A stretch of 64,000 nucleotides of DNA from Nannochloropsis salina CCMP1776 (taxonomy: Eukaryota > Sar > Eustigmatophyceae > Eustigmatales > Monodopsidaceae), in assembly GCA_004565275.1 (NCBI GenBank), contig SDOX01000021.1, forward strand, positions 1,260,696-1,324,695. Direction: 5' to 3'. Position numbers and translations under genes: made by a program. Shown one piece after another: positions 22,139 through 44,067 of the stretch (position 1 is the first letter of the stretch; every line of letters starts with the position of its first letter). The notes below the pieces were generated by a model. That model was not told the origin of the DNA, did no database searches, and saw only the letters and a list, made by a program, of their open reading frames with translations.

Positions 22139-23206
22139 CTAGCTATTCCAGATACCCAACTTTTTTGACACATCTTCTGCGTCTATTTTCAATCGGCTGT
22201 ACCAAAAATCTCCATCACTGTTAAAATCTTTAAAACTTAATCGTACATCTCCGTAATCAATCAACGACCATGGGCTTAGCGTTCCTGGACGTGACGGACA
22301 GAGAAGTAACTTTTGTCCTTTTCTAGCTACATGCGTATTTTTAAACATACACAACCTCAATAATTTATGATAAATTCGACTTTTTGTAAGGTATCTAACG
22401 CTTATCGCTTGGGCACTCATGCACAACTAGTGTTAGAATATAGAAAGTTAACCTCCAGAATCATTCGAGCCCGTGAAACACACCTTTTACATGTTAATTT
22501 CGAGAATTGCATCCAAAATCTTGATGAAAACAAAATAAATTTTTTAGATATCAGCTCTTTAATACAGTATTGATTTACCATACTGACTACTTTCATAACT
22601 TATGTACTTTCGCCCAGCGGCGGTACAACTTATTTGTGGCTAACGAAAAGCCGTTACGCATCAGCTGCCATCGCCAAAGAATCGTTACTGTACAAAATAC
22701 GCTTTTTTCCGACTTATTCTTGGCAAATATTTAGTTGTTTTTTTGAGTTGTCTTTTACGATGAGACAGCATATTTCTTGTCTACAAGATGCTGATGAAAG
22801 GATGCCGGCTGAATTGAGAGTCTTTACTACAATCTCGAATCTCTCGGCAGGAAGTGATTGTCTGGGCATTATCCTAGCTTGCAATTAATTGAAGCCCTAA
22901 ATTATGTAAAATTACAGGCCATCCTCCATTTTACCCAGGTTTCATGATTAATTCATCTAACTCCCGATATGGTCGCCGCATCGTTTTATTCTTCACCGCT
23001 TTTCTAGCTGCTTGGTGCTGTTCCATGTAAGTCGGCGTTCTTTTTAACATTCCCTTTCTACACGCAGCACGACATTCATCACGTAACACCTTCAATTTCT
23101 TGAAAAAATATAGTGCTGACAGTGCCATTTTAGCTCTCAACATACGTGCAAAAAAGGTATCATCCGCTTTGTCTGATATGCGCTCAAATGAGCAACAATA
23201 TCTCAT
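22139..23206 (-). CDS. Possible small minus-strand gene, unknown
   Basis: Two minus-strand open stretches look coding. The first, 23206-22931, encodes a Lys/Arg-rich helical segment from an ATG and ends at a GGTAAAAT that could be a donor. The second, 22426-22139, encodes 95 residues with a mixed hydrophobic and acidic C-terminus. A joining exon is not clear, because the acceptor at about 22898 leads quickly to a stop. No family was recognised. The first stretch overlaps the N-terminal codons of the GPCR reading frame on the other strand (23178-23206), so at most one of the two starts is right. Confidence 0.25.
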
Positions 23207-24974
23207 TGACGACGTCCGACATTATGCTGGTGGCCGCCGGGAGTTTGAATTTTTGAGCAGCAGCTCCAATAATGGCGTTCTATCTAATCTTTTACGCCCA
23301 AGTTCTGATGGATACGATATAGGCGGTCCAGCTCCAATATGTTGGAAAACTTCGAACGGTGAGACTTTTCGCCTGACATCCTGTCCGGGGAGCCTTGTTA
23401 TCAATTTTTTGAATGTACCACCCAAAACTATGTTTGCCAAGGAAGACTACACTACTACCTACCGTCTAACTATCGATTCAACGTCTTTAAGCTTGACTAA
23501 ACTTAATATAAGCGGCAAAAGCTACGATATACCTTCTGCCTTGGTGCGCTCATGTCGGAATAAAATTGGATTTTGCACGCCGTTTATCGAGAATACCAGG
23601 GGCCTGTCCTACTCCTCGCTTCCTATATCAGGAAACCTTATTCCTGGTGATAATAACCATAGCAGCGCAGAATTTATATCTACTGTAAACGTAGATCCTG
23701 GCTCTTACACAAATATTGCCCATCTACAATTCTGGGGGCAGGAAGGTGGGGAAGCCGTCAAATATGACGTTGCTGCAGCTTTTGTGCGGGACGTACTTCC
23801 ATCCAGAAAAGTTCTGCAACCTGACTTAGCTGTGCGACATACAATGGCGGTTGTCGTTGGGCTCGCGGGTCTCTTTCTAGCAGTTACCTTTATTTGCCTT
23901 GTCTACTGGCGCAAACATAAGGTTTTACGTTTCTCCCAAGTTAATATTTTGATGTACATGACGTTGGCAGGTTTGATCGCCCTTTGTGGAGTACCCTTGG
24001 CGGCAGTAAATACTCAGCAGGCATGCTTTGCCCGTCCTTGGATTACCATAATACCTCTCAATTTCATGTTTGGTCTACTTTTTGGTAAAACATGGCGGAT
24101 ATATCGACTGATGAACAACAAGAACTTGAAGGCCATTAAGATCAAGGAGAGCTATGTCCTTTATGTTGCTCTCCTCCTTACCTTGCCGGAAGTTTTTATC
24201 CATGGCTTTTACCAAATCGTTTTTACCCCGCGCTTGCAACTTATTCAGGTGATCAATGAGTATACTTTTATGTACGAATGTACGGGCGGGTCTTTAGTCA
24301 AGAACGTATTCGACGGTCTCCATTTGGCTTATGCTGCCATGATCCTTTGTCTTGGGTGTTATGTGGCTAATAAATCGGCGTCCCTGACGACCCTATTCAA
24401 CGAAGGGAAGCATATCATGTTCGCGATCTATACGTGTTTCGTCCTGTCCATAATTATTGTTCCCGCTTCATTCGCTGTCGCCACGGATCCGCAGACTAGT
24501 TTCATCTTACGTACTTTAGGTGTCACACTGGCTGTAGCAGGCACCATTGGCGGGATAATCATACCAAAGATAAGACTCATCCTTTCAGGCGTCGACCTGT
24601 CGCTCGATGACAGTAAAGGCAATACCACTAAAGCTGTCTCCACGCACAGTGAGACAAGGGCAACATCTTCAAATGCTATTAAACACGCATCGACAGCCTC
24701 TACATGTGTAACACCGTCAACCATTAAGGTGAAAGACCGCGTCCCAACAGTTGTAATGCAAAAATTAGTGGACGTATTTGCATCTGGAGCTACGGTAGTC
24801 GACCGGCAGAAGCAAGGGTATGCACTTCGCCGTTCAGATTGGGAAAATTGTGTGGAACAAATTCGAGGCTTGGACGAAATTTTGCAGCGCTGTGTGTTAA
24901 GTAGTGAAAGGGAAAAATCTGCTGACTCTCGACCTGGGGGATCAACCGCCAAAGTGGCGCCGACTCTTGTCTAA
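23178..24974 (+). CDS. Class C (GABA-B-like) G-protein-coupled receptor
   Basis: About 598 codons from the first in-frame ATG. The frame is open upstream to 23100 and a 5' exon with a signal peptide is probably missing. The N-terminal ~220 residues are a small extracellular domain with several Cys, much shorter than the ~400-residue Venus-flytrap domain of animal receptors. Seven hydrophobic segments follow (first near 23840, last near 24540). Family marks are FGKTWRIYRLMNNKNLK after TM3, a Cys before TM3 (QQACF) and one in loop 2 (YECTGG) for the usual disulfide, and IIPKIRLIL after TM7. The cytoplasmic tail of ~140 residues is Ser/Thr-rich with a short helical end. Ligand and coupling are unknown. 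Such receptors are known in diatoms and other stramenopiles. Confidence 0.87.
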   Translation: MRSNEQQYLIDDVRHYAGGRREFEFLSSSSNNGVLSNLLRPSSDGYDIGGPAPICWKTSNGETFRLTSCPGSLVINFLNVPPKTMFAKEDYTTTYRLTIDSTSLSLTKLNISGKSYDIPSALVRSCRNKIGFCTPFIENTRGLSYSSLPISGNLIPGDNNHSSAEFISTVNVDPGSYTNIAHLQFWGQEGGEAVKYDVAAAFVRDVLPSRKVLQPDLAVRHTMAVVVGLAGLFLAVTFICLVYWRKHKVLRFSQVNILMYMTLAGLIALCGVPLAAVNTQQACFARPWITIIPLNFMFGLLFGKTWRIYRLMNNKNLKAIKIKESYVLYVALLLTLPEVFIHGFYQIVFTPRLQLIQVINEYTFMYECTGGSLVKNVFDGLHLAYAAMILCLGCYVANKSASLTTLFNEGKHIMFAIYTCFVLSIIIVPASFAVATDPQTSFILRTLGVTLAVAGTIGGIIIPKIRLILSGVDLSLDDSKGNTTKAVSTHSETRATSSNAIKHASTASTCVTPSTIKVKDRVPTVVMQKLVDVFASGATVVDRQKQGYALRRSDWENCVEQIRGLDEILQRCVLSSEREKSADSRPGGSTAKVAPTLV

Positions 24975-25362: not shown

Positions 25363-28300
25363 TCAAAAGGCTGCGTCTTTGATAGGCCCTGCCAGAACAC
25401 GCCTCAGGGATGAAATGGTCACGGGACCACACTTGTAGAAACACAGGCCGACTTTGGCGCCTTTTTCTTCACGCCCCTTCTTGTTCAGCCATCGTTTCCA
25501 GCAAGGCATGCACGCTGTATGCCCACATTGTGATACAAATACAGAGGAAGTCTCGTCGCAAATCGGGCATTTCTGCTGACGATTGCCGTGACTACCATTT
25601 TGCTCTTTGGCTTTCATTTTCTTGCTACCTGACCTAGAGCCTCCCAGGCCCTGATCGACTAGGTGCTGCAGGCGCTCAATCACTTCTTCGTCTCTACTTC
25701 CTATCTCAACCCCATTTTGTTTGATAATACTCTTTTTGTCATATGTGTTTTCTCCTTCCCATTTTATCTTGTTGGTCGTCTTGACCTTTTTGGCTGGTCG
25801 ACTTACCAGGTATTCCTCTTCTCCCCCGGGGGCGATGAAAACGTTAGTTTTCCCCGATAAATTCGAATCCTGCTCTGTGGTGGCCACCATCCCTGTCACG
25901 GATGCGCTTCTCGCTCCTATCCTCGCCAGAGGAGTCCGCCAGTAAGGTTTGTACCTCGTTTTTACCATACCATCGAATACAGGTCGCAAAAAGGACGATA
26001 AGTAAGATTGCGCAAATCGGGATAAAAAAGTGGGATCAGCGCCCGTGGAAAGGAGGACGTCGACAGCTCCACCTTTCGCCGCCGAGGTCCAGGCTTGAAA
26101 ATCTTTCAGAGACTGGACTTTCCCTTTTAAGACTTCCTTGACCCGATCCTGGAGAATCAGCAAGCGGTCAGGCGAGAGTTTCGCTTTCGCACCCTCAAGC
26201 CATTCCTGCATTTCGACAAAATCGAGCTCAGCTTTCTGTTCTCCTCCTGATTTCCCTGGACTATAGCTTTGGCTCTGTTCCTCCCTTTTCCTTAACCCGT
26301 TCTGTTTCGTGGCACCGTCTGCAATCTCAACCTTATCTCCATTGCTTTTGCTTTGGACTGCTCGTTCCCCCATTTTGTGGAGACCGTGTGAAGAACATGT
26401 GGAAACGCTGGGTGGTATGGCAACAAGTTCTTCTGCCGAGCACCCGCTACAATTTTCCGCATTTTTTAGAAGTGTACGATTCCCCTGTGGGCCTCGCAAT
26501 TGATGTGATGGTATTTGTATGTGTGATCGCACAGCTGATGGTGGTCCTGTTTTCTGGAGTAAGATCTGTCCCTGTCTGCCCCGAGCGGTGTTGTTGTCCC
26601 CTCCGTCCTCCGCTCCATCTTCCTTCGGACCGTCGACACCCTGTTCATCACGCCGTAAATCGACCATGACTGCGGAAATACTCGAGTTCAGAGCCGAAGC
26701 CTTTCGGGGACGGGTAAAGGATGGAGGAACAAAGCACACGGAAGAGGAGGACTCGGAGCTTCGGAAGGAGAAAGAGGAACGCTGCTGATTTCCAATCATC
26801 AATTTATCGGCAGCCTTTTCGCCATCTCCATTGCTTCCGCCAGAAGCAATCCCAGAAACGCGTACACCCGGGATGAAATTGGTTGAGTCCTGGAAAGAAG
26901 AGGGACGCGACGAGGAAGAGGAGTCTGACGCGGATACTGACCGCGTGAGTCCAAGTTGTTCGGAGAGGCTCGCTTGGCGCATCAGGGACTCCTTTCCGGG
27001 TATCCCGACCGTCTCTCGCTTCGTTTCACGCAAGCTTGAGCCACATTTTGCCGAAGTTGCAATTTTGCAGGGGGAACGGACCTCACAGTCGCTAGCCTCC
27101 CGAAGGCTTTCACGATCACTGATCGCTCCTGTGCTTCCACTATCTTTTGAGAGCACTGCTTCCTTCCGCGCGAGCAATAGGGACAGCGTCGACGGTCGAG
27201 GACCCAGTGGCTTTCCCTCCATCACCTGGGTGACACGTTCCTGCTGTTTGAGCGCGCTTTTAAATTCCAAGAACCTTTGAAGCGCCACTTTCTTCCCTCC
27301 AATTTCTGCTTGGCTCGAAGGGAGAAGTTCTTGCTCAATGGCCTCAGGGGCGATGTAGCCAGCATCCGCGTCCACTTTCGTCACGTTCACGATAACTGCT
27401 CCTCGATTTCTTGCTCGAAATCCTGCCCCTTTTCTGTTCCTTCCGCTGACTTGAACACTCTCCATCGCATCCCATTTGCCGTCCTCCTCTTCCTCCCACT
27501 CTTCGTCAAATTCATCCTCGTCGCCCTCTTTCCCCCCTCGTGTCCCCGACGCCCTTGCCCCTGCCCCAACCCTTCTTCTTGGAACCAACCTCGAGATACC
27601 CTTCACCCGTACGAAGAATTTCCTGATTCCCTCCATGGCTTCTTCGAAATTTGTCGCCGTGCTCACGTGAGGACGTACCCATTGACTCAAGGATGCACGC
27701 TGGGCGGGCGCAGCAAAGCGTTCGTCCAGGAAAAGGACAATGCCGTAGTCGTTTTGATGACGGATGACCCGACCCACAGCCTGATTGACTGCCCGGGCTG
27801 CTTGCTGTTGGTACCATTCCATGCCTCTCAATGGTTGAATGGAAGAAGGGACGGAGGCAGGTGACGAGGCGAGCGAATCCAGATACATTTTTTTCAATCC
27901 TACCCGCGGATCTCGGGCAGGGGGGAAAGGGATCCCTGTGATGACTACGGCGCGGGCACGTTGATCGGCAAAATCCATGCCTTCGCTCACCTGCAGGGAA
28001 GGAAAAGGAGAAGAAGCGGGAGAGATAGAGGAGTGACCCCGAGCTGAGACGCGGCCAACGTCCGTCATTCCTTTTACCCTAACGTGCGCATATTCGTACG
28101 CAAGACATTACATAACCCCCCTTTCCTACCTTCCCCCGGCAGACAGCAAGCAAGATCGCGCCTCCCTCCTCTTTGATCGCCCCGTCATAGGCCAGGATGC
28201 ACGCAGGCAGCTCTGCCGCTTTCCGTGGTTCCTCGACAACTGTCTTGACGCGCTGCAGTCGTTCGTAGACCCCTCCTCCAGCCCCCTTCCCTTCCCCTTT

Positions 28301-30323
28301 TTTCCATTGTCGCAGGCACAGGTCCATTACTCCATAGGAAGGAAAGAATACCAACACACCCCCGGGCACTCCCCGGGCTACTCGGATTAGGCTTTCCCCC
28401 AAATCAGCCAGGTAGCCGTCTTCCCCTCTCCGTTGAAAAGATGAGGACAACGTCTCCCCACGTGGTCCGCGGGACAGGATGGACATGAAGGTTTGCACGG
28501 AAGTGTCGATGACGTGCTGGTTCTCCAAGCGCACAGGAAAGGGAATCCGGAGCTCGCTGGCAAAGGAGTCGAGGGGCGACAGCGTCCCGCTTGTCAAGAG
28601 GACAGAGCGGACCGAGAGTTGCAAAAGTTGCTCCAGTGCAATTCCTGGACAGAAACACCAATAATGGAGGACCCGCCTGGGGGGATCCTCAGCCACCGGA
28701 GGGAAAGAACTACGCCTCTTTCCTCCGCCGCCTTGCCCCCTTCCCCCTGTTCCCAAGGGCCGTTGCCCGGCTCCTGTCGTGAGACTTAGGGATGGCCCCC
28801 CACTCTCGATGTAAAGGCGGTAGGCTTGCATGTTCTTCCGCATGGCCAGCGTATCCCCCCAGAAATAGATCATTTTGTACGCCTTCAAAAATGCCTCCAG
28901 CGCTCCTCCCGTGAATAGTGTCGAGACGATTCCCATTCCCCCCTCGTTCCCCCCCCCTACGATGGCATCGTCCATCAAGAAATTAATCGTACGCTCCAAC
29001 CGAGACACAACCGCGTGAAAATCCACTGGCTGCAGTCCTCCGAGCCCAGCCCCATAGAAAAGATCCTGTAGCTTTTGTGGTCCTAACACCGCACTCTTCG
29101 CTGGCACATGCGAGCTGGAGAAGGACGGGGGCTTGTACCCGCCGGTTACAGTGAGCTGGATCGCGTCTATGCCTTCTTCTAATGCTCGAAACGCCCGCTT
29201 GAGCCACACCAGGTCCTCCTTGGTCGGCGCTGGGGTCCCAAACGCGGTCCCTCCAGCTTTCCCTCCTCCCTTTTCCCCTCCTTTGGAGACGACTCCCTCG
29301 CCCTTCACTTTCACGATCTCCCAGGCCTTTTCAAGCTCCTCTGAGATGCGTGCCGTCATCGTGGTGGACAATGCCAACGACCAGGCCTCTGACGCGACCC
29401 CTTCCAGGTTGTGGGCTTCGTCGAATATGACCACGGAATTTGTCCAGCGCACTTGATAAGGTTGCCGAGAGCCTGCGTCTAGCAGGTAATTGTACGGCAT
29501 GAGCACTAAGTCTGCGTGGAGCGTGTTTTGCCGCATCAGGTAGTAAGGGCACACCTGTACGAAGAAGCGAATCAGGGGGGGAAAGCAATCGATCGAATGA
29601 AAACACTGCATACTTGGGATTCGCTACACACCGTCGCCATAGCCCTCCTTTCCTCTTCTCTTCCCTTACCAGCTTCGTCTGCCCCAGACTTTTCAGTTCC
29701 TCTATATCCATCACTCCGGGACTACCACCCCCTACGTGCTCCGCTTGATAAGAGTCCAGATTATTTTTGTACCGACACGCCCTGCTTTGTGTCAACACAC
29801 CACACCGGCGGTTCTGTAAGCCGCCTTTTAATTTGCTTACTTCCGGATGCACGCAGAGCTGCTCCCTTGATCCCAAAATAACGGTGTGGGGTCGGTAACC
29901 TGTAGCTTTCAATTCGCGAATAACTTGTCTCAATTGCGAATGGGTCCTTGACGCATACACGATCACAGGTTTGCCTTGCACACCTTTGACATGATTGTTA
30001 ATACCCGCGCCATTTGTAGGCGGAAAAGAACGAGGTGTTCCAGCGTCTGTTTCATACATCAATGTCATGCTACCATTGCTGATGCCCGTGCCACCGTTCC
30101 CGCAGCAAGAGCTGGCACGGTCTCGTTCAGGGCTGTAAGTTTGCTGCCAGGCTAATGTCGAACAAAGAAGTGACAAGGTCTTGCCGGTGCCGGTGGGTGA
30201 CTCAAGCAAGGCGTTCGTACGATCCTTCAAGGCCGCCACCACTTTTTCCATGTACGTGACTTGGACCGGATAAGGCTGAAATGGAAAATCCACGGAGACA
30301 TCCTCCACCTCGATCCGTGGCAT
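25363..30323 (-). CDS. RTEL1: RTEL1-type iron-sulfur DNA helicase
   Basis: Three exons on the minus strand (30323-29670, 29554-28130, 27990-25363) join in phase 0 to about 1,568 residues. The N-terminus (MPRIEVEDVSVDFPFQPYPVQ) and motif I (ESPTGTGKT) follow animal RTEL1 closely. Four Fe-S cysteines are present, in LCVHPEV, RRCGV, RACRY and VCPYY, the last restored by the first splice. Motif II is VVIFDEAHN. Motifs V and VI are CRGK joined by splicing to VSEGMDFAD, and AVGRVIRHQNDYG. A helical block near 26180 resembles the harmonin-like module, and the C-terminus has a RING-like finger (CPICDE...CGHTACMPC...C...C). RTEL1 is a 5'-3' helicase that dismantles D-loops, T-loops and G-quadruplexes in the nucleus. 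The long Ser-rich linker may hide further introns. Confidence 0.95.
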
Positions 30324-30800
30324 GCTAACACCCGGTCCCTGATTATGGAAAAGGCATTTAAAGTGAGAAGTTGAGGCACACCTGGCGAGGCGCAGGCGAG
30401 TGGGCGAGACTTATCGCACCCGAGGGATTCGTGCGAAGAGTAACAATGCCTGGATAAAGGCAAAGAGAGGCAGAAATTTGTGACACAGGCGGAGAGAAAG
30501 ACCGTATTGGAAGTTTGCTTCGCCAGGCAAAGATGATTTAAGTGTCGAATTCTACGAAAGAGACAGGCTGGCATGTTCCTTCTCTCGACGCCTCAACTCA
30601 CTCCTCCTCTTATTCCAAACATATTATACTTTCCCTTTTGGTTCGCAGCGTGCGAAAATTTTAATTATCACATGTATTTGTTTTAATTCACTACTTCTCT
30701 CTGGCCATTTCAATAGGTTTCGCCGCGATAGACAATTTCCAGTGCTTCAATCAGCTAACATACTTTACTCGGCTAATTATTCGCGAGGGGACTTGTCTAC
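30324..30800. other. Divergent promoter region, RTEL1 and nuclease gene
   Basis: 477 bases between the RTEL1 start and the nuclease ORF. It is AT-rich near 30600-30790. No specific element can be assigned. Confidence 0.5.
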
Positions 30801-32573: not shown

Positions 32574-35500
32574 CTAGTATTGTCCTCTCCTCCCCCTTTT
32601 CTTCCTTCTCTTCCCCCGCCTCTCGGATAGCGTGCCTCTGCTTCCTTCTGAAATCTTCCTCTTCCCCCTAGTCAAAGGCGTACTTCCCGTTCCCGGAAGA
32701 ACACCTCCCTCTCCCACATCCTCCCACTCTCCCTCCTCTTCCCCGTTGTCCTCCCCTTCTCTCCCAGACCCCCCCGCAAAAGCCCGCACCTCAGGCACGT
32801 AAGGCAAGAAATCGGGCACCACGCCAATATCAACGTACCCTCCCCCTACCGTACCTGGTTTTATAAAACCAGGAGGCTGGCTTTTCCCTTTGCTAAGCCG
32901 CCGACTGTCCCCGTCCGTGTCCAGTTCTACCCGTCCGTAGTCCAAGAGGCGATCCAAAGACCACACCCGCAGCGCAAGGGAGGCAGGTGTGGCGTACTTG
33001 ACGGCATGGGCCCATGATGACATGCAGAGAAGATAGGTGCTCCGGAAAGGGTTGAGACGCCATCGGCTGTCGATGGAATGTTCGAGAAGGATGAGGCATT
33101 CCATCAATTCTCGGGCCGTGGCTGCCATCTCGACGCGGCGGACCCACTTGTTAAATTCGTCCCTTCGAAGTTTTATGCTTTTTCTGGCTTCGTCAGGAGC
33201 GTCCAAAATACATCCCAAGGGCAGCGCCGCTTCCACCGTCAATATTGCTGCCTTGACTTCAATTAAGCTTTCCTCTTCTTCTTCCACGTCCTCCATTCCA
33301 GCCATCCTCTCTTCGCTTTCCGAAAAATTCAAGGCTTTTCGCCGGAATTCGTAGCGAAGGCGGGTGGGAAGGAGCTTGGCTTTGCTCCGTGGGCGGTTTC
33401 GATTACTGGCTGTCACGTAGGGGAAGGCTCTTAGCTTCTCGACGAACGGCACAGGAGAGACATAACGTGCCCGCGCAATTTCCTGCCGTTTTTCCCACTG
33501 CTCTTCATGTTCCTCGGCACGGAGGGACGTCCATGGTAGGAGGGAAGGCGGCGCATCCCTTTCAATGTCGGGGGTGGACGAAGGAGAGGGAAGGGAAGAG
33601 GGAACGGGGACATATGGGATCCATTCATCCGCCTGTGCCCACCCGTCATAGCTGACTCGGACAAGGCCCTGGTCGGGGTTGACAAAAATCACGTGCGCCT
33701 TCCACAGCACGCCATGTTTCTCGACAAAGACCGCGTCTCCGACCCCCCAAAGCGCCTGCGTGGCCCCTGCTGTCTCTTTTTCCGTCTCTTGTTGTCCGAC
33801 CTCATTTTCGTCTGCTCCAGTCCCAAGATTGTCCGTTTCACCGTCGTCTTCCTCGCTTCGCTTATTTCTCAGGAATTTCCGAACGTCCGGGTATTGTCTT
33901 AGGATCGCTTCGCGCAAAGCCCGTTCTTTTTTCCCTCTTGGGTTCAAGTACTCTTCCACCACCTTCCCAATGGCCTCGGCGCTTTCGTACACGAGCCATT
34001 TCTCCGCGCTCCCCTCCCGTCCTTCTTCCCCCAAGGCCAGGACCTCGGTATCTACCGAATGGGCGAGGGCTTCGTCATGCTTCTGCCGGATCAAGGCCAT
34101 CGCGTCCGTGGACCCAGCAATGCCCTCTTCGCTTTGACCCTGCCGATCGTACGGCTGGACGAAAAGGAACCTCGGTTCTCCCGCAAATTGCCAATAGATA
34201 CGGCCTCCACGGTCCTGTCCCAATGAGGCCGTTCTCCCTCGCCCCATGAAAGCAACGCTTTCCACACCTACTTTCCGTCGCAACCGCCGCTCCCGTGCCC
34301 CCGCCTCTGCCTTGGCCTCCACCAGCGCGTCCGCACAGCATTCGTGCGTGATCAGACTGCCTTTTCGCAAGGTGGGCACCTCCCGCTTCCCGTCCGCTCC
34401 CTTGACTTTCTCCCTCCCCCCTGACCCCGCCAACGGCGTCGACGTGAACACCTCCTTGAGTACCCTTTCTGTTTCCAACGCCAGGTTCTCGTCCACCGGC
34501 TGCCAGAATACGTAGCGATCCGCGCTCTTTTCCTGCTGCTCCGTTACCGTGCGTTTTTCCAAAGCTTCACGTACTTCCTCGGGCAGGGCATAGTAATCTT
34601 CGGCACTCGGTCCATACACCATAATATTGCAGAGATACTCCTCCGTCTCCCCACACAAGGCACACACCGTCCCTCCTCCTTTCTCGTCCTCGCCTCCTTC
34701 CTTCTCCTCCTCTTCCCCCCCTTCATCTTCCTCCTCCTCTTCCTCTCCCTCCTCCCCTTCCTCTCCTCCCTCCTCTTTCCCTCCTTCCTTCCCCTCCCAT
34801 TGTCCTTCTTTGCTCAACCTCTTGAGCAACTTCAGCCCCTCCTTTCCCAACGCCCTTCGCGTCTCTTTCTTTACGCCCTCTTCAAAACACAAATATTCCC
34901 GTGCCCGCAGTGGCTCTTTTCCCACCAGCAACAGATCTCCACCCCCCTTCGTAAAGAGGGGCAAGCCCATCAAAATGCCTGGTTCCCGCGGCCTGACAGC
35001 CTCCTTCTCCCCTTTTCCTTTCGAAAGCTGCCGTTTCCTGCCCCCAGCCCCCCCCGGCCCTGTCTCCTTTTCTTCCTCCTTTTCCTCCATCGTCGGCGTC
35101 GCGGTGACTGTGCTGGTTGGCAACACGGACGGAGGGGAGGAAGTCAGTGACCCGGCGTCCACGGATGTCTCCTCCTTACCCACAGATTTTCGAGACCGCC
35201 CCCGTCGCCGGCATACCACCTCCCCCTCCTCGTCCGCCTCGGCTCCCTCCTCCATTTCCCACTCCTCCCCTTCTCCTTCGCTCTCCGTCTCCTCTCCCTC
35301 CCCCTTTTCTCTCTCTTTCCCTTCCAAGAGCTCTTCTTGCCTCTGAGCATATGCCTCGTCGTCTGAAAAGTCCTCCTCTTCTTGCACCACCCGAGCCGTG
35401 CCCCCCGCGCCCGGCAAAAAAATCGGAGACACACCTCTTAACACACCCAGCTCCTCTTCGTCTTCGTCTCCCACCAGCTCCTCCTCCTCCGTTTTCTTAG

Positions 35501-38500
35501 TGTCCTTTTCTGCATTCTCGACAACAACCACCTCTTCTTCCTTCCCATTCCCCTCTTTTTCTTCTCCTTCCTCTCTCCCTTCCTCTTTGGGCCCCTTTTG
35601 TACCCCCTCCACCAGGACTTCTCCTAACCGCTCCCTCAAGTCCTCCTCATGTCCTTCCAAGTAGTCTCTCACCCTCACCGTTCCCCCTGCCTGGCCCGCC
35701 AACGCCACCAGACAAGCCACCCATTCCCTTGCCCCTTTCCTCCCCCCCTTCCTCCTTCGTCGCCCTCCCACACCAGCGTCCAAGGCCCGGATCCCTTTCA
35801 AGAGCTCCACCAGTTCCACGTCCCCCCCATTGATCCAACGGCGGACGACAAGGGAAAGCTCCGGGTCCAATTTCCGGGGAAGTCGGCTTTCTCCTTCTAG
35901 AAGGTACCCAAGCCCCCAGCGACAGTGACCCAGCGCCTCATACTCACACTTGGCATCGATGGCTGCCGGGCGTTGCAGAAGCAACTGCGCGAGTTCTGGG
36001 TTCTGTTGGGGAAGACCCTGAGCACGGAGGAGGGAACAAAGGGCATTTCTGTCCAATTTGTGCTCAAAAAAGGAAGGGGTTGACGAAGAGGAAGAAGGAG
36101 ATGGATTTCGAAACAACAGGGTGTACACAGCCTTCTCACGCGTGTAACGGACAGAGGCAACCCGCCCGGCAAACGCTCCCACGCCTGGAAAATGCTTAAC
36201 GACTCGAAGACGGAGGAAAGGGTCCACGTCTTTGGGCATCCGCTCCCGAATGCAATCCTCGCAGAACCAATATTCTTTCTCCTTCCCTTGCTCGGACACG
36301 TTGCGGTTGGGATGCAAGACAGGCATTTTCACGCAGTCCGGGTGGAAGGACGCGTCGCACCGGTTGCACTGCTGAGGCGACACCTGCCGCCATTCCTTGA
36401 TCCCGCCCACCAAGGTAACTTCCACAGACTGCGGGTACGGGTCTCGGCAAACCTTGCAAGTGGTGTCCAACCCCAGTTCCTCCAGGGGGGGGGCATCCAC
36501 ATCCAGGACCCACTGCAAAAGAAGCCGGTCAAAGCGAGCCACCAACCGATCGGCATCGTGCAGAATCACGTCGTTTTCGGGATTGAAGAGGGCACAATTG
36601 ATAAAAACCCGCCGAACGTCCGTGGCGAATCGCCCCACCGAGTCATCGTATTGCCCGTTTCGCAAGTTCCGTGTCACGTCCATCAGACCCAACGGACGCG
36701 CTACCACCTCCCCGTAACCCTCTACGTGCGGTTGATACTTAAACAAGCTTCCTCCTTTAGCCTGCATCAGAGCTTGTAGGATAGCGTAGCATCGTCGGAC
36801 GATCTCAGCTTTGGCCTCGAAATCCTCAGGCGTTATGTCCCTGTAGGCATCGATGTCTTCCTCGTCCTCCTCCTCTTCCTCCTCCTCCTCGTCTTCCTCG
36901 TCTTCCTCTTCCTCTACCTCTCCACCTTTCGTCAATATCCCCATACCATCCTCTTCCTCTTTTCCTTCCACTGTCTCACATTCTTCCCCTTCTGCCCCAA
37001 GCCCTAACGATGACCGCCGGCGTTTCCTTTTCTCTTTCTTCCCTCGCCTGCCTCCTCTCTCTTTTTCCGCCGAGGATCTTCGGGACTCGCTGTCCAAAGA
37101 ATCAGTCTCAAAACTCGCGGTGGAACACGCCAGAGAGACGCCATTATTCCCCCCCCCTTCTGTACCTCCCAAGGAAGGCGAGGCAGGGAAGGACGGCACG
37201 GTGGACGACGCAAGTTGCGGGAGTCCGTGGCCTGTGGTCGACGTCACGGAGGGGGCACTCATAGACGCGATCGATTCGCTAGTCATAACCCTGTTCAAAG
37301 AAGAGGGAATTGCAGGGGTGCCAGATACCTTCTGCAATTCTTCTCCATCCTGCTTGATTTCCCCTTCTCCTGCTCCGCTACCCACGCCTGATCTACTGCC
37401 TCCTACTCTTGTCTTTCCTCCCGCTCCCTCCACGCTGGAGGGTGACTGCCGGTGCTCCAGCAAGTCCTTCTCCGCCTCCTCCTCTTCTTCCTCCTCCTGC
37501 TGCGGTGCTTGCGACGGCCGTTGCTCTCCTCCCCGCTGCATGGAACCAGCGATGGGGTCGGTCTCCAACTCTTTCCAAACACCGCCCTCGCCCAAATTAC
37601 TTTGGTACATATCCAACGCGGTCATGGCCTTCTCCACCGCTTGCTTGATCGCCTCCAGCCACCCTTTCTTGTTTTGGTTCTCCCCTTCCTCCCGAAACGG
37701 GGCTAGGACCTTGGAGGCCTCCTGTAAGGCCGTTACCACCCCCACGCCCACCTCTCCTTCCCTCCTTTCCACCGCCGAAAGCGCCCGCCCCACATGTTCG
37801 TCCACCCAGGGTCCCCATCGTCCTTCGTCCTTCGTGCCCTGTCCCGGGAGACACCGCAGGCTTTCCAAGGCGACTTGCCAGCCAGAGAGCAGACACCGCA
37901 AGGGATTCGGGGTCGGAATACAGAGCGTGAAGGCCGTCCGCGACCAAACAGGGAGACCTCCCCCTCCTCCCCGTCCTCCCCCCGTCCCTCGGTGTTTCAT
38001 CAGTACCCGCAAACGTCCCATGGTCAACGCTTTCTTATCCCAGGCATCCATTTGGAAATCTACACCCCGACCACGCAATGCATATGCCAAATCCACCGGT
38101 AACTGCATGACACGGTAGGCTTGCGCCATAAAGGCCCACCGGGCCAACTCCGGCCATGTCATTTCGTTCAACGGCAGCGTCGGATCTGGGTCGATGCCTG
38201 CCCCGCTCCCTGCCCCACTTCCTCCCTGGGTAGGAGAGGAATACATCAAGGTCTGCACGATGTCGGGGAGGAGAACGCCGGTGAGGCGTTGCGCCACTTC
38301 GGAAAGGACGCGCATCCGTCGTTCTTCCCGGAGCGTGGGATGACGGTCTTTGCAGGCTTCTGCGGCATCCAAGGCTTTCAAGAAGAGGGAGAGGGAGGGC
38401 CACTCTGACATCCCCATCTTCCCCGCCAGCGTGTAGCCCACATCCCAGACTTGGAGGACGTCCGCCATGGTCCGAGAGGAAAGGAGGTTGTTGGCGGAAG

Positions 38501-41500
38501 AAAAGCGCGAATTCGAGGAGGGTGTATACGACGGGGGCAGGGGCAACGCTTTCCCCGTCTCTTCCAAGTGCGCGTCGTCTATCAAAAATTCATTGGCAAG
38601 TTGAGGTACGGCCACCATACCCGCCGGAGCGTCGGCCCCAACTTGGACCAACTGTCGTGCTGCCGCCCGGCGGCGTTGAATGTCGTTGTCCATCCGGATT
38701 CGCAAACGTTTCAGCTCCCGCTCCAGCTCCTTGATCCGTTCCTTTCGACGCTTCCTCTCCACTTGACGCATCCGCTTCTCCCAACGCTGCTCCTCCTTGC
38801 TGCGTTTCTTCTCCTCTTTCTCCATGAGTTTGTTCTGCCGCCTCTCCTCCTCCCGCTGCCGGACTTCTTCGCAACGGAGGCGGATCAGCTCCTCCCGCTC
38901 CATCTCCTTCGCCGCTTTCAACGTCGCGTCTTCCTCTGCGCTTCTCACCTCTCCGTCCCCTTCCTCCCCCTCCATTTTGACTTTACCCCTTCCTCCCCAG
39001 TTACCCCCCCCCCCTTTAAAAGCTTCCCTGCCCTTTCCTCCTCACCTGCGGCTGCCCACGCGGCCACCGCCGCCTTGGCCCGCGCCAAGACTATGTTCTC
39101 ATTGACAACCCCTGCTGAGGATTCCAGCCCAAAAGACGCGGCTGCAAGGGCCTTCACCCCCTCCGACGCCGGTACCAAGTCGGACAAGGGGTCTCTCCCT
39201 CCTCCCAGCCCTCCCTTCCCTTCCCTGTGGCCGCCCCGTCCGAAAGCAGGGCGGCGCAGGTCCACAAATTCGTACAATTTGCATTTATCGGCCCCCGGCA
39301 TACCTTCGATCAAACGGCGAATGCTGTCCGTGAAGAAGGATCGATAATCCACCCAGGGCCTGACGGACGCGTCCTCCCTCCCGTCCTCCGTCCCACCCTC
39401 CCCCTCTGTCTGTCCGTTCTCGGGCTTCCCCCACTTGGCGCCTATACGCAAGCGTAAGGGCGGCACCGGCAAAGCCAATGCAGTGGACGTGCTTTGACTC
39501 AACCACGTGTACGCTTCCGTCCTAGCGTCGGCCTCCAACTGGGCCAAGAGCTCGCACCGTTCTTTCAGGACTTCTTTCTCCAGCAACACTTTCTCTCGGT
39601 ACAGTTTCCCCAGGGCACGCCGCGCTTCTTCCTCCTCCGGGTCGCATGCCACGAGAGCTTTCCTCCCGTCATCCTCCTCTTCTTCCTTCCCTTTCTCTTC
39701 GCAAACAGCGAGACGCCGCTTTTTCCTGGCCCTGCGTCGGGCCAATTCATGTTTTTCAAGCAGACAAAGCTTGTCCAAGGCGTCGCTCCACGCCTTCCTC
39801 GCATTGCGTGCATGAAACACAAAACGCCCTCCTCCTCCTCCCCCCCCGTCACTTCCTCCCTCCCCTCCTCCCCCACCCCCTCCTCCACCAGAGAGCGGTT
39901 TCGAAAGTTCTAGAATCACCTTGAAATTCGGACCTTTGTCTCCTCCCTCGGTAATTTCGAAGAAGAGAGCAAGAAGCTGCCGCAAAACATGACTCATCTC
40001 CACGCGCGCGGCTTTGAACCCCAACGGCCAGATTTCCGTTTCACAATGGTAGTTGGGACGAATAAAATCAATTTTACCTGCAAAGAGGGAAAAAGAAGTG
40101 AAAATTAAATACATCGACGATTTCAGAACCAACACTTTCTGGTTTGTCAGAGCATCAGTGAAAGAAAGCCGACCCCCCCTCCCCATTTTTTTTTTTCTAC
40201 ATATTTTCCTCCTTTCTTCTTGTCCTCCCCTTGAGCCCTCACCAAAAGACAGAATGCGAACAGGACCCAGCTGCACGGGCATTTTGAGGACGGCGCACGA
40301 AAGGAAAGTCCTCGCTTCGTCGTACACCTTTGAGCGGGCCAGGGCGAGGGAAGCGGGGGACAGACATGCGGGATGTACCCTTGCTCCCTCCCCCCTACTC
40401 CCTTCCTCCCCTTCGTCGTCTTCCCTGCCGCCGCCCCCCCTTGACTCCTCCCCCTCGTTTCCGTCCGCCGCGTCGGCTTCGAGTGCAGTGGGTCGGTAGG
40501 CCCCAGCCTCTCCCGTGATCGAGGAGGTGCTGGAGGTATTGCTGTGGGCGGGCAGGGGGGGAAGCGTGCCCCCCAGCGTCTCCAAAACGGAGGGATTCAT
40601 GGAAGGGAGAGGAGGGAGGGAGGGACGCGATGCCGGGCCCTTTACGGCTTCGGCCGTGCTGGACAAGGGCAGGGCGGACGTTGCAGGGGACGATGGACTC
40701 TGCACTCCTGGTACCTTGGCAGGCGATGGCTCCGGCCCTGCTGACAAGGACATGCTGCCGTCCCGACCCGGCGTTGCCTCTTGCTTCCTCCGCATCTCGC
40801 CGCGCTTTTGGGCCTTCATCTTCCGGTGCTCCTCTTCCTGGACGACCCGCGACAACAACGCCTCCACCGCAGCCGCCTTGGAGGCAAAGACTTGGCCGTG
40901 AACATCTACGTAGATCACTTGTCCTGCCCCCTCTCCTTCCCTCCCTCCCTCTCCCCCTTCCTGCTCCCCTGCCGCCCCTTCCGCCACGGGAAAGACTTGC
41001 TCCACACGCCAATCTAGCAGGGCTTTGGCAACCACATCCACACTGTTCGCATGGCCGTTTTTCTTCTTCAGGTCATCCGGCCCATCCCCCGGCTCCCGGT
41101 TTCCCTCCTCCTCTTCCTCTCCCTCGTTTCTCTCCCCCCCACCCTCTCCCCGCTGAGAGGCCAACCGCTCTACCTCCGCTCGCAGCTCGGCCAACAGTGC
41201 CGCTTCAGACTCTTTCTCTACTGGGAGGACCGCGGTGCCCGGCATTAAGGGAGGGAAATACGCGGAGGGGCTCGGTGGCCTGCCCCCTTTCCTACCCCCC
41301 CCCCTTCCTCCTTTTTCTCCGGCAGCTTTTCGCTTGGACGGAGCGGAACGTTCGCGCACTTTTTTGCGGTTAGGATCTTGCGATACGTGGGATTTACCGC
41401 TAACTTCCGCTTGAAATTGCAACTCGGGTAATTGCGCCTGAACGTCCGCTCCTTCTCCTCCTCTTTTTCTTCCATCCCCAGTCAGGTGGGACACAAAGGC

Positions 41501-42214
41501 CTGGTGGTGTTGAGGGTGTTGTTGTTGTTGTTGTTGTTGTTGTTGCTGCTGCTGCTGTTGGTGATAATGGTGATGATGTTGTTGTTCAAGCAAGGCCTGG
41601 TGATTATGATCACGATGTTGTTGTTGCTGCTGCTGCTGCTGCAGGTGCTGGTGGTGGGCCTGTGCCAATGCATACCAAGCTACAGCGTCAACGCCTGAGG
41701 TCTGCGGTCCTATACCTGCTGCTGCTGCGGCTGCTTGCTGCTGCTGGAGATAAAATTGTTGCATAGCGGCCGCTGACACGGACAGGGACCCCTCTTCTCC
41801 TTTCCCTCCTCCTCCCTCCCCGTGCTCCCGCCCGTGGTGGTACGGAGTGGGGTAGTGCGCGTGCGCGCTATTGTCGCTGACGTTACCGTCGTGCATCGTC
41901 CCAGTCCGGTTGCCGTGAGAGTGCGAGGGGTAGGGCCCGGGATAGGCTGGAGGCTGTGCATGGTAGACGGGGGGGGAAGGCGCACTGTGACCAACCCCTG
42001 CGCCGGTCATGTAGCCGTACGTGTGTTGACCGTATGCAGGAGGGTCCATTTGATAAGCAGCGAAATGCTGTTGTTCCTGCTGCTGTTGAGGTGGAAGGTA
42101 AAGCTGTTGGGGCGACGGTTCGTGTTGCTGATGATTGAGCCGCTGCTGCTGTCCAAGAGCCATGGGGGGGTAGCCACTCGGACTGCCACCACTCATGTTG
42201 CCAACATTTTCCAT
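32574..42214 (-). CDS. Giant chromatin protein: FYRN-FYRC, DDT, bromodomain, PHD, chromo-barrel
   Basis: Exons 42214-40243, 40077-39046 and 38935-32574 join in phase to 3,121 residues. Part 1 has a Gln/His-rich N-terminus with a (CAA)n run, an AT-hook-like KGGRPPSP, then FYRN split by the first intron (VRILSFG / KIDFIRPNYHCETEIWPLGF) and FYRC (FFEITEGG...FKVILE). Part 2 has a Glu/Arg coiled coil, a DDT-like block (~38280-38470), a WHIM-like ELARWAFMAQAYRVM, poly-Glu, a bromodomain (~36500-36860), a PHD finger (CKVC...CNRC...HPDC...CEDC, ~36240-36475), a second Cys/His module (~34345-34670), a WHIM2/3-like DRGGRIYWQF, a chromo-barrel (~33610-33755) and a helical C-terminus. These are histone-reading and remodeller-subunit modules. 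The two halves could instead be separate genes, with an ATG at 38975, but that ATG lies inside the predicted intron. Confidence 0.8.
41509..41650 (-). repeat. PolyGln-coding CAA/CAG tracts in the FYR gene
   Basis: Two Gln/His tracts are encoded on the minus strand. The longer holds pure CAA units (seen as GTTGTTGTT at 41518-41544) followed by mixed CAG codons, and the second lies near 41620-41650. This parallels the Q-rich ORFs at 5.3 and 10.6 kb. Confidence 0.85.
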
Positions 42215-44067
42215 TATCAAACTTTCGCGACGTCAAAGGCAGCTAAAATGCCTGACTTTGTGACAGCGAACGCGCGTCCTCAAACAGCTCCAGTCTTCCT
42301 TAGTGCACTTTCCATGCACGGATGACTCATCCTTTCACTCCACTGCTTTCTCTGAGCGTGTGATTAAGGCGAGAATATGTAGCTGTGAGCAAAAATTACG
42401 GTAAATTAAAAGCTTCTTCGATGGAGAAGAGACAAGCCTTTCTTGCTCTGTCTCTGTCAAGGGAGGGCAACACTGTCGCAGGCGTGACGATACGCTGCCA
42501 CTTTCAAGCCTCATTAGACTCCTTGTCACGCCGTAAAATGTCGACAGGCCTCCAAGGGAAACCGTCAAGATGCCACGTGTCGAAAGCGTGAAAGGGCATC
42601 AATTTGGATTCGAGCTTACGCCTCCTAAAGAGGCCCTGCCCTTATTCGGCCTCCACCCCCCCCCTCGGTCACGACGACGACATGCAAATGTGAATCTGTG
42701 CCCCTTCAAGGTCTAAGACGATGAGTGGACTGGGGATTGAACGTTGTCGATGTGTTATGGCACGGACGGGTGGGGTGCATCACAGAGGCCGGCGTAGAGG
42801 CGGAGGAGGCAAAACGCGGAATGCCCCAGACGTGAAGGGCATGGAAAATACCCCAAAGCGTGAAGCCACGGACAGGAAATGGTCGACAAAACCACACCCA
42901 TCACCCACCAGATCCCACGCAGGTTGAGGAAGCACAACGCTTCCACCTCCTAAGCACTTTGAGAGGCTCAAGGCTTGCCCCCCGCACGCCGGGCAGGTCT
43001 CGTTTCGTCATGGTTTTCGGTTCCTCAACCTCGAGACGGGCATATCGACGGCTTACGCGCCCGCGTCAGGTGATACCAGGCAGGGGCGGGGCCCGGACCC
43101 AAATAAATTCCCCCTGAAACATCCCTGCCGATCCATTCGAAACCCATGTCCCGCTACGGACATGCACATGTCGACAGGGGTTTTTGCAGCCTTTCGTGCC
43201 ATGTTGGAAAATATTTAATGGAAGATTTCGTGGCATGCATTGCCCAGCCCCCTCCGGCTGAGGCGAGGACGAAATTCTTGGGGTGGGAATCGCGCCTGGC
43301 AAAGAGGGCGATCGGCGCCTGAGAAAGGGGGCGTGTTAGGGAACGACTGGGTGCATGGCCGGCACAACGTAAGGAAATACGAAAAATCTGCTCATAGAGA
43401 GATGGTGCGGGGTGATGGAGGTTGGGGTTTTGCTTTTAAAGGGTCATTTACATGCACTGCGAGGTACCTTGCACTCCCCTTGGGAGCAGCCCCCGGACTT
43501 GCGTCCTCTCCGTCATGGGCACGTTTCTAAAATCACCTGTACAGATTATTTTCGGTCAAGCATTTGGGACGCAGATTTCAGATGCTTTCAACGTGTGAGC
43601 ACCCTCGTATGATCTCGCTATCCCTGTTGCCGTTGCTGTTCTTCATTTGGGGCAAGAAAACCCGGGGCAAGGAGGAAGCCAGCAACCCCTCCGCTGTGTA
43701 GTCCGACTCCTCAACTTGCTTTGATGGGACAGAGAATGAAAGCCTGGGGGTGTCGTCCATTTTACTCCGAGCAATCATCTCACCGAGAGTATTTTGCAAT
43801 TTATTACAGGGACGGGTGCTCGTTTTTCGGTGCGCTTGCGGGTCTTGTTCCCGGAAAAGTGTTGGCACTAACCGCCTGGAAACTGCACATAGGCAACCGC
43901 AAGGAAAAGTGCAGCCTGTCTGAATGAAAGATACACCGTGCCTGTCTTCCCTTCCAGCCACGCAGTTTTGTTCCTCCTTTCCCTGGCCTCTGTCCATGAT
44001 ATCCGTCTCGACCCGTCGGGCCCGCCCCAGCCGACGAGGAGCAAGACTACGTCGCTCTCCCACCCTC
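42215..44067. other. Long intergenic region between divergent genes
   Basis: 1.85 kb upstream of both the giant chromatin gene (minus) and the OTU gene (plus). Short open stretches on both strands, including 43578-44159 minus, have no family signal and no splice logic. It probably holds both promoters and 5' UTRs. Confidence 0.45.

Follow-up and report, generated by a model that had tools for sequence, protein, structure and literature searches.

A probable MBD9-like chromatin remodeller subunit encoded by two overlapping open reading frames

An MBD9-like module set at one locus

The minus strand of the window (the whole stretch of 64,000 nucleotides that was analysed) contains two large overlapping open reading frames (ORFs). 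Together they probably encode a single accessory subunit of chromatin remodellers, similar to MBD9. In order, this protein would carry a possible MBD, FYRN-FYRC, a coiled coil, DDT, WHIM1, a bromodomain, a PHD finger, WSD and a Tudor-like barrel. We propose that both ORFs go back to a single reading frame, which they probably still form, and that this frame is interrupted in or close to a stretch of 11 G; a single ancestral gene is likely. The evidence for a single MBD9-like protein includes the MBD9 module set, the order and strand of the ORFs, a paralogue collinear with the downstream ORF, the presence of SLIDE and YL1 genes in the genome and the codon usage upstream of the G run and from 38975 on. 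Against it we counted the codon usage at 38976-39000, the context of the ATG at 38975, a splice donor at 39045 and the lack of a FYRN match in the paralogue P37; DDT, WHIM1 and MBD, all below Pfam detection, also speak against the MBD9-like reading.

The upstream ORF (38945-42232, minus strand, as are all features below unless indicated) measures 1095 amino acids from stop to stop; from its first ATG, at 42214, to its TGA it covers 38945-42214 and comprises a Q/H/P-rich N-terminus, FYRN and FYRC. The downstream ORF (32574-39041; 2155 amino acids from stop to stop, with an ATG at 38975) carries a basic coiled-coil-like stretch, DDT, WHIM1, bromodomain, PHD, WSD and the Tudor-like barrel. The two share 97 bases. 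An earlier note on this DNA had described two huge overlapping ORFs, the second having its ATG inside a proposed intron, and both the ORFs and the ATG at 38975 were confirmed.

Domains of the downstream ORF

Two domains of the downstream ORF exceed their Pfam cut-offs, namely the bromodomain at 36549-36785 (41.5 bits, cut-off 21.7), in which the Asn of FNPEND is presumably the acetyl-lysine pocket Asn, and WSD (the D-TOX E motif) at 33894-34235 (47.7 bits, cut-off 25.4). The PHD finger at 36237-36464 has a long first loop and scored 20.4-22.1 bits for a cut-off of 24, with every C4HC3 ligand present by eye; no second PHD was detected by the Pfam scan in either ORF. After the PHD, at 36039-36240, the sequence KHFPGVGAFAGRVASV...YTLLF has what we take to be a resemblance to Tudor-like stretches of plant DDT-PHD proteins, and a Pfam scan of 35901-36230 gave no match. 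For DDT and WHIM1 the Pfam profiles gave no match within the window. The putative DDT-like region (38235-38474) and WHIM1-like motif (LPLNEMTWPELAR, 37986-38177) were called from the paralogue alignment and, for DDT, also from a weak profile match (hhalign P=0.0014, probability 17%). Towards the C-terminus, a segment at 32931-33149 is common to P37 (blastp E=1e-4).

A barrel of Tudor/chromo-barrel type is predicted at 33585-33764. The AF2 model of this region, built from a single sequence, has a mean pLDDT of 70.5, with 74-86 in the core, and the top five rows of the Foldseek search were all Tudor (E 0.018-0.046). Concerning MBD, the region 40802-41059 of the upstream ORF, with a helix, strands and a long helix, is a candidate for a possible MBD-like fold; scans against Pfam and PDB and folding of the fragment did not establish an MBD. 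A genome-wide search for MBD gave no match, but the same search matched none of 14 control genomes, so that absence is not shown by it.

The domain reading of the earlier note is largely right. In its list, FYRN (once spliced) and bromodomain lie over their cut-offs, with PHD and FYRC just under; its DDT/WHIM call agrees with the paralogue alignment and lacks a Pfam match, and its "chromo-barrel" holds as a predicted fold type, without significance at the sequence level.

An intron within FYRN

Sequence evidence argues for an intron of 165 bp at 40078-40242, within FYRN, which was missing from the earlier note. It starts with GTGAGG and ends with a pyrimidine tract and CAG (TTTTG/GTGAGG ... 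CTCTTTGCAG/GT, slashes marking the splice sites); being in frame and stop-free, it reads as coding. Splicing it out raised the match scores of both FYRN and the TBRG1 structure. In the unspliced fragment, used as a control, FYRN scored 20.7 bits over profile positions 15-40, while the same fragment once spliced gave 32.5 bits over positions 1-40, above the cut-off of 24; FYRC went from 20.4 to 20.9 bits, just missing its cut-off of 21. Over the whole unspliced ORF, FYRN and FYRC each gave a partial Pfam match of 17.6 bits. The match to the TBRG1 FYR structure 2wzo improved from E=8.8e-4 to E=1.1e-6, with both halves aligned. A splice model made from 15 other introns was applied along the gene to GT-AG pairs 60-400 bases apart whose donor reached 2 bits or more. 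Among these, 40078-40242 came first, and of all AGs scanned its acceptor scored highest. The intron-split FYRN would thus occupy 40001-40285; FYRC lies at 39257-39928 as two halves with a Gly-rich and charged insert between them. Both FYR modules of MBD9-like subunits are found here, FYRN over the cut-off and FYRC just below it.

The joint between the two frames

The earlier note had joined the ORFs by an intron at 38936-39045. Its donor at 39045 (CAG/GTGAGG) scores 10.5 bits, the second best of the gene, and joining 39046 to 38935 gives a single open frame of 3176 codons. To evaluate the acceptor we used 16 placed introns: of 20 places where kinase or kinesin matches break, 15 showed a GT-AG intron, and the FYRN intron was the sixteenth. 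The ends were set by eye, which could bias the set towards acceptors that follow a pyrimidine tract. The other five breaks (L063, L064, L068, L069 and L070) were left out as coding inserts by eye; they appear to be in-frame low-complexity inserts in kinase/kinesin domains. The proposed acceptor is 9% pyrimidine, compared with 62-97% in every one of the 16 placed introns (z = -7), and the final 40 bases preceding its CAG never show two adjacent pyrimidines. Its score is -24.2 bits, the 16 placed introns ranging from -8.8 to 19.7 under leave-one-out scoring, and of the 357 GT-AG pairs that would keep the frame, 70 score better than this one. Since the 3' signals fail, we rejected this intron as drawn, in spite of its strong donor and of the frames that it joins, and one gene joined in this way is very unlikely.

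The donor at 39045 could also serve a different intron, with an acceptor further downstream. Two acceptors, at 38450 (-1.2 bits) and 38579 (-4.4 bits), are comparable to the weakest of the 16. However the acceptor at 38450 falls within the DDT region and ends in AAG, where all 16 have CAG or TAG, while the use of 38579 would remove a stretch that begins with a clear coding bias (38870-38935); moreover P37 has, by eye, a basic stretch at the same place. One gene joined by such an intron is therefore improbable. The motif of this donor occurs only twice in 30.9 kb of coding sequence. If no intron starts at 39045, the one explanation that we have for the donor is chance, the stretch being rich in Glu; an equally good donor is found at 35678, within the downstream ORF.

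The best candidate for a site where the frame breaks is 39004-39014, within the ORF overlap, where the coding strand has 11 consecutive G. A change of one base in the length of this run, whether it arose during assembly or occurs in the cell, could merge the frames, and we lean slightly towards such a joint, either a single-base miscount in the assembly or a real slip. No second copy of the junction exists in the genome, the one match being the window itself. Codon usage upstream of the run favours the FYR frame (2.7 vs -10.2 bits). The FYR frame is still favoured just past it, at 38976-39000 (2.0 vs -2.5 bits), and the DDT frame is favoured at 38948-38975 (6.5 vs -3.8 bits). The method, based on 37 training sequences after one with masked bases had been dropped, chose the correct frame in 1421 of 2000 trials with stretches of 33 bases when tested on its own training sequences; as 38976-39000 and 38948-38975 each fall short of 33 bases, the break is located only roughly.

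A switch of frame preference near 38975 is equally expected of two genes, one of them starting there. According to this alternative, a TBRG1-like FYR gene would end at 38945 and a DDT-bromo-PHD-WSD gene would start at 38975, with a coding overlap of 31 bases, perhaps after the recent split of a fused ancestor. The context of this ATG, AAAATGG, is one that we take, as a general rule, to be good for a start, and FYRN is not matched in the downstream paralogue P37. The codon usage at 38976-39000 and the ATG context suit two genes, or else a break slightly further on. Nevertheless the two coding regions would overlap on the same strand, a promoter or a 3' end would not fit between them, and most modules of MBD9 are present once the two are taken together. 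We consider two separate genes rather unlikely, and one gene with a broken frame is the reading that we slightly prefer.

Relatives and partner genes in the same genome

Paralogues and partners were searched for in the genome (26.5 Mb, 103 contigs). It contains four WSD loci, the one in the window included. The paralogue P37 (L013:3022-9867, plus strand, contig C37), collinear with the downstream ORF, possesses PHD, WSD and a C-terminal bromodomain; no FYRN match was found in it, and its central bromodomain-like stretch has no separate Pfam match. The WSD protein on contig C55 also gave a DDT match, though below the cut-off. On contig C1 (L011:2998-9702, minus strand) a 2235-codon ORF contains a DNMT1 replication-foci domain (RFD), WHIM1, WSD and two bromodomain stretches, an unusual mix.

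FYRN was found at E<=1 in at least two places of the genome, the window and a separate KMT2 with PWWP, bromodomain, PHDs, FYRN, FYRC (20.7 bits, under the cut-off) and SET. The possibility that the FYR module of the window is a stray KMT2 exon was considered and rejected, KMT2 being a separate gene; the two FYRN places on which this comparison is based are a lower bound. Concerning partners, ISWI-type SLIDE matches are present on two contigs and a match to YL1, which we take to be a SWR1 subunit, on one. DDT proteins are reportedly bound by SLIDE. We also looked for relatives in viral_contigs (a DNA pattern plus two pieces of protein) and in genome_contigs (a DNA pattern plus one piece of protein) and found none in either; these collections cover viruses and prokaryotes, so that the negatives say little.

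Two other loci of the window were also noted. At 25366-30410 three overlapping ORFs with DEAD_2, an RTEL1 ARCH match just under the cut-off, Helicase_C_2 and a RING finger are probably one RTEL1-like helicase gene of several exons. At 23031-24971, on the plus strand, an ORF contains the seven-helix domain of class C GPCRs (117 bits).

Comparison with known proteins

The earlier note knew of no described protein combining these modules. This claim of novelty fails, because nearly the same module set is carried by Arabidopsis MBD9 (At3g01460), described as having MBD, bromodomain, two PHDs, FYRN, FYRC, DDT and WSD (PMC10451976). FYRN, FYRC, DDT (here below Pfam detection), WSD, bromodomain and PHD (here under its cut-off) are thus common to both; MBD9 has an MBD and two PHDs in that description, whereas at the locus one PHD was detected and the MBD is only a candidate. 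What remains new beyond MBD9 is the predicted Tudor-like barrel near the C-terminus, a feature of the locus. The order and strand of the ORFs fit a single MBD9-like protein.

Other families share part of the set. In BAZ1A/ACF1, BAZ2A/B and BPTF the PHD comes before the bromodomain; at the locus the order is the reverse. These proteins have WSD, PHD and bromodomain, and the putative DDT and WHIM1, in common with the locus, but no FYR module is given for them in the table of PMC5575660. From the same source, KMT2/MLL proteins share FYR, bromodomain and PHDs with it (PMC5575660). They also possess SET, which gave no match in either ORF at E<=1, and the genome has its own KMT2. TBRG1 resembles the locus in FYRN-FYRC, and to our knowledge lacks the modules of remodeller subunits.

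Previous work found an interaction of MBD9 with SWR1 and a strong one with ISWI, which may be separate, and a subset of sites at which H2A.Z requires MBD9 (PMC6659704); its preferred peptides are reported to be acetylated H4, mono- and dimethylated H3K4 and H3 dimethylated at R2 or R8 (PMC6695207). By analogy with MBD9 and BAZ/ACF, DDT-WHIM-WSD would hold the ISWI ATPase, bromodomain and PHD would read acetylated or otherwise marked histone tails, and the FYR module would add protein contacts. Jointly the modules may steer ISWI and/or SWR1, with its H2A.Z deposition, to active promoters.

Implications

A narrow search of the literature for FYRN together with stramenopile found nothing, a result that extends no further than this combination. 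We tentatively suggest, at somewhat less than even confidence, that the locus encodes one MBD9-type protein in an organism other than a plant, and that a methyl-mark-reading barrel, as predicted, has been added to it. The locus also indicates that gene models can be misled by long in-frame introns, and perhaps by errors in the length of G runs. If the source is a stramenopile, the FYR-DDT-WHIM-bromo-PHD architecture would have arisen before plants and stramenopiles diverged. If an MBD9-like protein outside plants is true, the adaptor of ISWI and SWR1 known from plants would be of ancient origin, and the age of the ISWI-SWR1 link would become testable in a species with a small genome.
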